Of a stretch of DNA of 64,000 bases, positions 11,602 to 17,212 are shown one piece after another. The stretch is from Sabulibacter ruber (GTDB taxonomy: Bacteria > Bacteroidota > Bacteroidia > Cytophagales > Hymenobacteraceae). The notes beneath the pieces are model-generated. The model worked only from the letters and a program-made list of their open reading frames with translations. It made no database searches and had not been told where the DNA came from. A program made the position numbers and the translations under genes. Positions within the stretch are counted from its first letter, which is position 1; every line of letters starts with the position of its first letter. The stretch is from assembly GCF_017355955.1 (NCBI RefSeq), contig NZ_JAFFID010000001.1:992001-1056000 (forward strand). Reading direction: 5' to 3'.

Positions 11602-12666
11602 TTAAGGCATGTAAGAAACCTCAACTCTGAAACGCTTGTCAGAAGCGCCAATTTGCTGGCAGGCCTTTTTAGAGAGTTTCACCACCAGTTTGTCATTGTC
11701 ACCGGTAGAAGGCAGTTTCCCGATCACGCGCACGTACACAATCTGGTCGTTCATGGGGTTTTTCACCGCCATGATAGTGCCCACCGGCGCTGATTTATGC
11801 AGCGCCAAAAACTTGTTGGCATCGGTACGGGTATCAATCTGCTCGGCCATGCCGCTCTCGTTCACCCGGGAGACGTACTCGGTGGTTTTGCCGGTCTCTT
11901 TCTCGTCCTCGGCATCGGCGGCTTTTGTGGTTGCCTCAGCTTTAACCGGGGTTTCGGTCTTCGCCGCTACCGCAGTTGATTTCTTAGTGGAAGACTCTTT
12001 GGCAGGGGTTTCAGTAGTAGAAGCTGGCGTAGCTGCCGTGGCCGGAGCCGACGATTGCTTTGGCGCGGAAACTACTTCTTCTGGCTCTGAGGAGGCAGGC
12101 GCTTTGGTAGAGGCTGTGGCCTGGGTCGGGGTTTTCGCCACTGGGCCTAATACCAGGTTCTGGCCAACCACTACGGTATTGGTAGAAAGCTTATTCCATT
12201 TCTTGAGGTCATCCACGCTTACCTTATTCTGCCGCGCAATGGAGAACAGCGTTTGGCCGGGCTGAACTTTATGCACCTTGTTTCCTTTGGCACTTCCTTC
12301 AGTGGGAAGGCTTGCTGTTGTAGCAGTGGAGGTTGAAGCAGGAGTTTCTGCCGGCGCAGCAGGTGTTGCCTTGGCTGTTGCAGTACGGGTGCTGCCCGCC
12401 GGAGTATTGATAGGAATCAATACTGTCTGACCTACTACCAGGGCTTTGTTGCCGGCTTTGTTGGCTTCTATGATCTTGTTTACCGCCACCCCATATTTGC
12501 GGGACAACGCGTAAAAGGTTTCTCCGGGAGTTACTTTGTGGGTAATATAGGTTTTCCCGTTCTGGGTTTTCACTCCGGTGGAATCGCGGGCAAACAAGGT
12601 ATCCGCGGAGGCGGCGCCGTACGAAACCATGAGACATCCCAGAACAAACACAAACTTCTTTAACAT
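11602..12666 (-). CDS. Secreted protein with two LysM domains and RlpA-like C-terminal domain
   Basis: About 354 residues. I start at the ATG at 12666 (MLKKFVFVLGCLMVSYGAASA) because it gives a clean Sec signal peptide; the TTG at 12687 adds seven charged residues ahead of it. Two LysM peptidoglycan-binding domains follow (HKVTPGETFYALSRKYGV... and HKVQPGQTLFSIARQNKV...), separated by Thr/Ala/Pro linkers. A long Ala/Lys/Thr-rich spacer leads to a C-terminal ~85-residue double-psi-beta-barrel-like domain (TRTDANKFLALHKSAPVGTIMAVKNPMN). It probably acts in the periplasm at peptidoglycan, as RlpA-like septal proteins do. Catalysis cannot be asserted. Confidence 0.85.
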   Translation of the reverse strand: MLKKFVFVLGCLMVSYGAASADTLFARDSTGVKTQNGKTYITHKVTPGETFYALSRKYGVAVNKIIEANKAGNKALVVGQTVLIPINTPAGSTRTATAKATPAAPAETPASTSTATTASLPTEGSAKGNKVHKVQPGQTLFSIARQNKVSVDDLKKWNKLSTNTVVVGQNLVLGPVAKTPTQATASTKAPASSEPEEVVSAPKQSSAPATAATPASTTETPAKESSTKKSTAVAAKTETPVKAEATTKAADAEDEKETGKTTEYVSRVNESGMAEQIDTRTDANKFLALHKSAPVGTIMAVKNPMNDQIVYVRVIGKLPSTGDNDKLVVKLSKKACQQIGASDKRFRVEVSYMP

Positions 12667-15659: not shown

Positions 15660-15707
15660 CTAACATATGTTAGGTCTTTGTACGGATTTATGGATTTTAT
15701 ACCTAAC
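15660..15707 (+). promoter_or_regulatory. Dyad-symmetric candidate operator upstream of Gly/Ser/Asn-rich gene
   Basis: Perfect 14-nt palindrome CTAACATATGTTAG (15660-15673), followed by a second pairing GTTAGGT (15669-15675) / ACCTAAC (15701-15707). It lies 86-130 nt before the ATG at 15793 in an otherwise featureless 311-bp gap and could bind a dimeric regulator. Confidence 0.3.
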
Positions 15708-15792: not shown

Positions 15793-17160
15793 ATGAAAAA
15801 TCGTGAGCATACAGGGTACGATGCCTTTAATTCGTACCGTTCAGGAAACGAGAATACTGGTCGTAGTGAATGGGGCAGCATGGGCAATCGTACCACAGGG
15901 TATGGTAATCAAGATTATAAATCCTTTGGCGGAAGCCACAACGCAGGTAACACCGGCGACCGTGGCGAAAACAATTTCACCAGCCAGGGCGGATCTGTAT
16001 ACAGTGGCCACCTGGGCGATAGACAAGAAAGCCACTATAGCAGCCACGGCTCCAATTACGGAGGCAACCAGTACCGTTCCGGAAACCAAAGCGACCAGAA
16101 CAGAAACAACATGAGTGGCCAGCAAGGCAACTCAAGCGGCTGGGGCGGACACTCCATGCAGGGCAACCAAGGTTCTATGCAAAACAGAGGCAATTCTGGC
16201 TATGGCATGAGCGGTAACTCTGGCTATGGAAATAGCGGCAGCTCCAACTATGGTTCTTCTATGAGCGGCTCGCGCAGCAATGACAGCATGAGCCAGGGGG
16301 GTTACGGTGCATACGCATCTGGTAACCAAAGCCGGGGCGGCTCAAACTACGGCAGCACCGGTTATGGCCAAAGCGGCTCTTCCAATACCGGCGGCTCCAG
16401 CCGTGACATAGGAACTTACGGCGGTGCCCGTACCGGTTACTCCGGATCTTCTTCCGGCCACATGTCTGGCGGAGCCATGGACAGAGGCAATGCCTACAGC
16501 AACTATGGCAATTCCAATGACTTCCGTGGTTCAGGATCTGGCTACGGCTCTAACTCCAGCAACAACTACGGTTCCAGCTATGGGAGCTCACGTGGCAATC
16601 AATCATCGGGATCTAACAACTACGGGGGATCTTTTGGCCACAGCGGGTCTTCTTATGGGGGGAATTCCGAGTCTTCTTACGGGCAGTCTTCCAGAGGCGG
16701 TTCTGGATATGGAATGAGCGGCGGTTCCAACTCCTGGGACAGCAACCGTAGCACCGGTGGCAACACCAACATGTACGGCACCAACAACCAAAGCCATGAC
16801 AGAAACCGCAGCGGAAGCAGCTGGATGAACGACAACGACAATGACAATGATCACGCTCGTTTCAGCCACGGCAACGCCATGGAAAACCGGTACTCAGATG
16901 ATTACAGCCACCCAAGAAATGACAACTGGGGCAGCAATAATTACGATGAAGACCGGTACCGCAGAAACCGCAGCAATGACAACGATGACAACAACGGAGG
17001 CGAAGGTTTCTTTGAAAGAATAGGCCACGGTATACGTGATGCCTGGAACAGCATTGCCGGTGATGACAATGACCGCGATGACTATGACAACAACCGCAGA
17101 GGTTCTGCCGGTGGCCCTCCTTACAACTACGGCTCCGGCTCTAACACAGCTGGTTGGTAA
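15793..17160 (+). CDS. Gly/Ser/Asn/Tyr-rich intrinsically disordered protein
   Basis: 455 residues with no signal peptide. Roughly residues 20-390 are low complexity, dominated by Gly, Ser, Asn, Tyr, Gln and Arg with recurrent SGYG, NYGSS, SNYG and SGSS units, closely resembling prion-like phase-separating domains. Residues ~345-455 turn Asp/Asn/Arg-rich (DNDNDNDHA, NDNDDNNGGEG) and contain a short predicted amphipathic helix, GFFERIGHGIRDAWNSIAG, before GGPPYNYGSG. The codons are clean and single-frame, and a strong terminator follows, so this is a real gene. I recognise no family. Possible roles are stress or desiccation protection, or condensate formation. Transcription may be controlled by the dyad at 15660. 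Confidence 0.8.
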   Translation: MKNREHTGYDAFNSYRSGNENTGRSEWGSMGNRTTGYGNQDYKSFGGSHNAGNTGDRGENNFTSQGGSVYSGHLGDRQESHYSSHGSNYGGNQYRSGNQSDQNRNNMSGQQGNSSGWGGHSMQGNQGSMQNRGNSGYGMSGNSGYGNSGSSNYGSSMSGSRSNDSMSQGGYGAYASGNQSRGGSNYGSTGYGQSGSSNTGGSSRDIGTYGGARTGYSGSSSGHMSGGAMDRGNAYSNYGNSNDFRGSGSGYGSNSSNNYGSSYGSSRGNQSSGSNNYGGSFGHSGSSYGGNSESSYGQSSRGGSGYGMSGGSNSWDSNRSTGGNTNMYGTNNQSHDRNRSGSSWMNDNDNDNDHARFSHGNAMENRYSDDYSHPRNDNWGSNNYDEDRYRRNRSNDNDDNNGGEGFFERIGHGIRDAWNSIAGDDNDRDDYDNNRRGSAGGPPYNYGSGSNTAGW

Positions 17161-17182: not shown

Positions 17183-17212
17183 AGAAAGCCCCACCATTTG
17201 GTGGGGCTTTCT
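17183..17212. terminator. Bidirectional terminator
   Basis: Thirteen-base perfect stem AGAAAGCCCCACC / GGTGGGGCTTTCT with ATTT loop between convergent genes. Confidence 0.88.

Follow-up and report, generated by a model that had tools for sequence, protein, structure and literature searches.

The gene discussed here occupies positions 15793−17160 of the forward strand of the window (the whole 64,000-nucleotide stretch of DNA that was analyzed, G000:C111:992001−1056000) and encodes a 455 aa protein, from an ATG start to a stop codon at 17158−17160. It is flanked by two reverse-strand genes assigned by Pfam, a topB-like type IA DNA topoisomerase (13013−15481) and a sulfate permease family protein (SulP, 17243−18877). 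The product contains 21.3% Gly, 19.6% Ser, 14.5% Asn, 7.5% Tyr, and 3.7% Gln, with 7% Arg, almost no Lys, and no Cys. The residues G, S, N, Q, and Y make up 67% of the chain, versus at most 35% in the 36 other window ORFs of at least 200 aa, and the sequence entropy is 3.42 bits, versus a minimum of 3.9 among the same ORFs. The charge is low and balanced (FCR 0.16, NCPR −0.013), with an acidic tail (−0.1). Low complexity, disorder, polarity, and aromatic stickers were all found, and the designation prion-like, Gly/Ser/Asn/Tyr-rich, given in a preliminary description of this DNA, is borne out.

The protein can be divided into five segments. Residues 1−40 (15793−15912) form a conserved N-terminal motif, M[RK]NxExxGYDxFN[ST]YRSGxENxxRxxWG, recognized in the ortholog alignment. 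It is followed by a low-complexity core (residues 41−344, 15913−16824) made of NYGS, SYGG, and GYGS repeats, with an aromatic residue about every 10 positions, and by a linker rich in Asp, Asn, and Arg (residues 345−401, 16825−16995). Next come an amphipathic helix (residues 406−421, 17008−17055), the equivalent of the SWFGD unit discussed below, and a conserved C-terminus, PPYNYGSGSNTAGW (17116−17157), which reads PPYSYGSSSRRDYEW in the SWFGD relatives. An Asp/Asn tail had been noted before, and residues 346−455 indeed hold 17.3% Asp and 19.1% Asn.

Disorder was assessed by the charge-hydropathy rule, which classifies the protein as disordered, and by an AlphaFold2 model built from nine sequences. 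The mean pLDDT of the model is 38.5, its single element is helix 406−421, and outside the helix pLDDT remains below 50 save for a short flanking stretch. The amphipathic 18-mer GFFERIGHGIRDAWNSIA has a moment of 0.607, a value that only 0.3% of shuffled sequences attain. The protein has no hydrophobic segment, the maximum Kyte−Doolittle mean over 19 residues being −0.17, and therefore neither a membrane helix nor a classical signal peptide, the latter as the preliminary description had stated; lacking also a hydrophobic N-terminus, it is likely to act in the cytoplasm. It matched nothing in NCBIfam, Pfam, PHROGs, PDB sequences, or plasmids.

A search of 59 genomes returned matches in 21, including all 16 Rufibacter genomes, each with a full-length ortholog. 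These orthologs are 423−522 aa long and can be aligned end to end; the length of the core varies, with indels of repeat units, and the composition is held in all 16, a check that the preliminary description had proposed. The pN/pS values, which are difference proportions without multiple-hit correction at a pS of about 0.6−0.7 and hence rough and biased upward, are 0.20 for residues 1−40, 0.33 in the core, and 0.29 in the Asp/Asn linker; the helix, at 0.16, is the most constrained segment, and the end again gives 0.33. Across the 16 orthologs 113 positions are invariant. At core columns that are aromatic in the window protein, the class F/Y/W is kept in 92% (Tyr identity alone, 86%), ahead of the identity at Gly (84%), Arg (81%), Ser (76%), and Asn (57%) positions. 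Furthermore, the aromatic residues are spaced more evenly than in 500 shuffles in every ortholog (z from −2.2 to −3.4), although this regularity could stem in part from short tandem repeats such as NYGS, which lie outside the shuffle model. The proposed sticker-and-spacer makeup is supported, no other class of core residue being as well conserved as the aromatics, and the gene is, judging from these patterns, a maintained one.

The relatives of this protein were found through its C-terminus and its locus. Of the 204 genomes of the family, 55 match the C-terminal profile A1: 16 Rufibacter, two of genus g2 (one being Adhaeribacter soli), seven of genus g4, and 30 of genus g3; one further g4 genome, 78% complete, gave no match. 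In g3 the A1 matches coincide with several loci (e.g., G181:C9, G185:C28, and G017:C1) of proteins carrying the SWFGD domain, NCBIfam NF033157, and this model scores above its curated cutoff of 35 bits in 50 of the 204 genomes, all of them g3 and none Rufibacter. It found nothing at E ≤ 1 anywhere in the window genome and matched neither the window protein nor its isolated helix. The best g2 or g4 relative scanned whole, L021 of g4, reaches E 0.0014 and 18.4 bits, below the cutoff, and 4 of 22 helix segments match weakly at E ≤ 1 (best E 2.4 × 10−4). The Rufibacter helix reads DAWNSIAGDD, without a literal SWFGD core. The corresponding helix profile, A3, was run against 395 genomes of the phylum and matched four at E ≤ 0.01, namely the window genome and three weak matches, two of them in short frames; with matches so few and weak, we take it that the helix can be detected within the family alone.

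The gene lies between topB and sulP in all 10 Rufibacter stretches, in both Adhaeribacter/g2 genomes, in five of five g3 SWFGD stretches, and in three of four g4 stretches, the fourth showing sulP only; the g3 loci have topB turned around with respect to the gene, and in Rufibacter topB is divergent, not codirectional. All eight g3 SWFGD proteins that were read (L183−L190) begin with MRSYxNxGxNP[YF] and end with GPPYSYGSSSRRDYEW. Six of them have two SWFGD copies, and in the other two, L185 and L188, the first unit is of the g4 kind (WDRMTDDDDN and WDRATNDNDN). The g2 and g4 relatives read are shorter than the Rufibacter protein (284−313 aa), and most carry the helix twice, once in a form similar to NFFERAGDRIQDTWNRWTDDDD and then in one similar to GFFDRMGNKISQAWNNFTGDDEERRYQER. 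Because locus and termini are common to these genes, we conclude that the Rufibacter gene is the positional ortholog of an SWFGD protein, its unit having drifted below recognition; the locus and the flanking motifs indicate common descent. Since it fails the NF033157 cutoff, it is called here SWFGD-lineage and not a member by model. The short helix noted in the preliminary description is predicted here too and is the conserved element of the family rather than an incidental trait. Nor is the protein an isolated oddity, given its SWFGD-domain orthologs.

No Pfam domain was detected in five relatives or companions, so that neither BON nor another known folded domain was found in these, and a g3 SWFGD protein gave no plasmid match. 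Three g3 proteins, L184, L186, and L189, carry tandem (SNYGSGS)n blocks between their two SWFGD units, which suggests that the low-complexity core grows by repeat expansion. A second g3 family (L055 and L057−L060) has a similar helix close to the N-terminus (MARDY...GFFNRIGEKISHAWERIAGDEDD), with an SGYG-rich core after it; it was at the topB−sulP locus in none of three stretches. This family shows that such a helix and cores of this kind came together on more than one occasion or underwent rearrangement.

Upstream of the gene, alignment and genome scans revealed a promoter-like element, AAC-N16-CGTATA, on the forward strand at 15705−15729. AAC plus CGT is the usual form of ECF-sigma promoters. 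CGTAT is invariant among the 16 Rufibacter sequences, where it lies about 90 nt ahead of the start codon, and AAC stands at 16 bp spacing from it in 15 of them (L028 reads AAT). Genes of g2 and most of those of g4 have the AAC/CGTAT form between −84 and −94, with CGTAC in L017 and L019, and all eight g3 SWFGD genes have AAC-N16/17-CGTAAA at −90 to −116.

The upstream dyad of the preliminary description could be either of two features. The palindrome CTAACATATGTTAG, at about 15661−15674, was rejected as a regulatory site, as it occurs in the window genome only among the 16 aligned upstream regions. A short hairpin in the 5′UTR (GGCGCC/GGCACC, 15739−15756, forward strand) does recur; its 6 bp stem (arms 15739−15744 and 15751−15756) shows weak covariation, with a double compensatory change in one of six pairs when 12 of the 16 sequences were compared. 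The 5′UTR also contains a block, TTCACCTT (15770−15777, forward strand), invariant in all 16 Rufibacter genomes and nearly kept in Adhaeribacter. An Rfam scan of positions 12000−22000 gave no match. Downstream, at 17183−17212 (forward strand), a 14 bp perfect stem was predicted as an intrinsic terminator, in agreement with the earlier view of a monocistronic gene with its own terminator; by eye, a similar stem follows all 16 Rufibacter genes, and it may serve both converging genes.

The promoter element is not confined to this gene. The pattern AAC-N14-CYCGTAT was scanned in five Rufibacter genomes and all 38 matches were examined: 19 are intergenic and have a gene starting no more than 200 nt away, 15 are coding, and four are intergenic without a start. 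With the spacing changed to N18, 43 matches were obtained, of which 30 were examined, and these comprise two intergenic before a gene, 24 coding, and four intergenic without a start. The excess before genes (19/38 versus 2/30) has a Fisher p of 8.7 × 10−5, and p is 6.3 × 10−4 when the four founder matches are removed (15/34). The raw count is not enriched, with eight matches versus 36 for the reversed pattern in the window genome, and the meaning of the motif therefore rests on intergenic placement and spacing. A tighter pattern, TAACC-N14-TCGTATA, gave 14 matches in six genomes, versus three when reversed and three at N18, and none of the 14 lies inside an ORF of at least 60 aa. They precede the window gene (two), a second low-complexity gene (four), DUF892 genes (three), FAD-NAD(P)-binding genes (three), a distant gene (one), and no gene (one); since the pattern was drawn from the window gene and the second low-complexity gene, the independent evidence is six of eight.

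Genes downstream of the motif include, by Pfam, DUF892 proteins, which we take to be of the YciE/YciF type, Pyrid_ox_like, an FMN_red flavoprotein, an S51 peptidase, PRC+DUF2382, DUF3050, and DUF4142, and also several genes unrelated to stress, among them a PAS histidine kinase and a hydrolase; most of the regulon matches come from single genomes. The loci concerned are L069−L076, L089−L118, and L169−L182. Five matches (L095, L106, L107, L117, and L173) have no gene start within the cutoff; the one in L106, which seems to overlap a start codon, is probably due to chance, and L173 is its near copy. Several genes thus have in common AAC and CGT elements about 16 bp apart, the usual ECF form, and the genes preceded by AAC-N16-CGTATA make up a putative stress regulon of the ECF type in Rufibacter, its sigma class being suggested by this form.

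The second low-complexity protein (MKDNQKEQ...) is 716 aa long in the window genome, where its gene lies on G000:C111 from about 2142072 (L163:526−2673). All 16 Rufibacter genomes have a homolog, and the search of 23 other genomes gave none. The promoter element precedes all 13 copies whose start was located; the script missed three starts, and one of these, in G009, shows the element in the tight-pattern scan. Like the window protein, it is rich in Tyr, Gly, and Ser, has the same promoter element, and occurs throughout Rufibacter. It differs in its locus, its Ser/Thr/Lys-rich N-terminal part, and its RGG-like repeats, which accompany GGYGS repeats, and no SWFGD-like helix was seen in it.

Our preferred reading, held with about even confidence, is that the SWFGD-lineage protein of Rufibacter is a cytoplasmic, disordered, hydrophilin-like protein of a stress regulon, which serves as a self-associating scaffold and docks through its amphipathic helix. 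In stressed cells, a sigma factor of group IV (ECF-type) would read AAC-N16-CGTATA, and the window protein would be made together with the second tyrosine-rich protein and the DUF892-type proteins. Through some thirty Tyr/Phe/Trp stickers set at even intervals along its Gly/Ser/Asn chain, it could then self-associate into condensates or a hydrated gel, which the helix may anchor to a membrane or to a protein client. Such a condensed phase would shield the contents of the cell from damage by drying, oxidation, or radiation. As a conserved gene that seems to be turned on along with stress-defense genes and that derives from a little-studied bacterial family, it is a promising candidate for encoding a bacterial former of protective droplets or gels. 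A more far-reaching version, which we regard as speculative and rather unlikely, is a Rufibacter general-stress regulon under an undescribed Bacteroidota ECF-type promoter with a pair of co-condensing tyrosine-sticker proteins. In it, the window protein would be anchored to the membrane or a client by a relic SWFGD helix, and its RGG-like partner would bind nucleic acid; the two would constitute a stress-granule-like protective phase that evolved by expansion of the disordered part of an SWFGD protein.

Other explanations have been considered. The helix might be a short linear motif docking on a partner that the disordered chain clusters, as in pyrenoids, with protection as a secondary effect. 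PYCO1 and EPYC1, described as linkers with sticker motifs in passages of PMC10288592, offer a precedent, and the strongest constraint (pN/pS 0.16, a rough value) falls on the helix, which varies in position and occurs in one copy in Rufibacter and mostly two in g2, g4, and g3. However, a single helix means low valence in Rufibacter, and no partner gene is tied to the window gene, whose neighbors are housekeeping genes, and this option seems doubtful. A nucleic-acid or nucleoid-associated protein, whose Arg/Tyr-rich disorder would bind and protect DNA or RNA under stress, would be in keeping with the Arg content, the RGG-like repeats of the second protein, and a topB neighbor kept across four genera. 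It is quite unlikely in view of the near-zero net charge and acidic tail, of the inverted topB in g3, which leaves no operon link, and of the absence of any known domain in the searches of NCBIfam, Pfam, and PDB sequences. Some matrix proteins are rich in Gly, Ser, and Tyr, as is the window protein, and Rufibacter lives in soil and on surfaces, so that we also weighed a role at the surface or in the matrix, as an adhesive or biofilm component that leaves the cell without a classical signal; it is improbable, as the N-terminus is not hydrophobic, the conserved termini are unlike the export signals familiar to us, and the promoter element is common to cytoplasmic-type stress proteins. Neutral growth through slippage of the repeats, with function confined to the termini, would suit the variable length and the repeat-unit indels, but the constrained core (rough pN/pS 0.33), the invariant positions, the aromatic class conservation, and the composition held in 16 of 16 genomes make it highly improbable.

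The topB−sulP locus gives SWFGD proteins a testable setting, with a conserved promoter element and candidate coregulated stress genes, and the element may open up a stress regulon in Bacteroidota. The literature searched contained no experimentally known function for SWFGD proteins and no relevant paper under that name. Among the matches listed for Rufibacter stress and for Bacteroidetes general stress or ECF factors, none describes the window protein or the regulon, and those listed for Bacteroidetes/Bacteroidota include no similar prion-like or disordered stress protein. If the core does condense, Rufibacter would be a tractable bacterium for asking whether the spacing of stickers is under selection for survival of stress.

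Among known systems, hydrophilins such as YciG of E. coli and Salmonella have in common with the window protein a high Gly content, a low GRAVY, disorder, and a stress-type gene set with DUF892 proteins. The criteria cited in passages of PMC4190154 are Gly above 6%, GRAVY below −1, and mean hydrophilicity above 1, with the hydrophilins retrieved there placed between −0.3 and 1 on the last measure. The window protein has 21.3% Gly (18.5−23.4% over the 16 orthologs), a GRAVY of −1.54 (−1.43 to −1.61), and a mean hydrophilicity of 0.21, not above 1, on the Hopp−Woods scale, which was assumed. Unlike YciG, to which it has no sequence relation, it is strongly aromatic and 455 instead of about 60 aa long. 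Eukaryotic prion-like domains of the FUS/hnRNPA1 type have similar Tyr-centered SYG/NYG repeats, low charge, and even aromatic spacing; the window protein is bacterial, lacks an RNA-binding domain, and has an amphipathic helix, and the likeness is one of sequence character, with no homology shown. A further comparison is with the g3 SWFGD proteins, which have the same locus and terminal motifs, an AAC-N16/17-CGTA element upstream, and Gly/Ser/Tyr/Asn-rich disorder around amphipathic units. The Rufibacter protein differs from them in its single unit, below the family cutoff, with WNSIAGDD replacing SWFGDDEAERRRR, and in a core expanded to about 300 residues. Together these proteins form a natural series, from two canonical units in g3, through two diverged units in g4 and Adhaeribacter, to one unit with a long sticker-rich core in Rufibacter.
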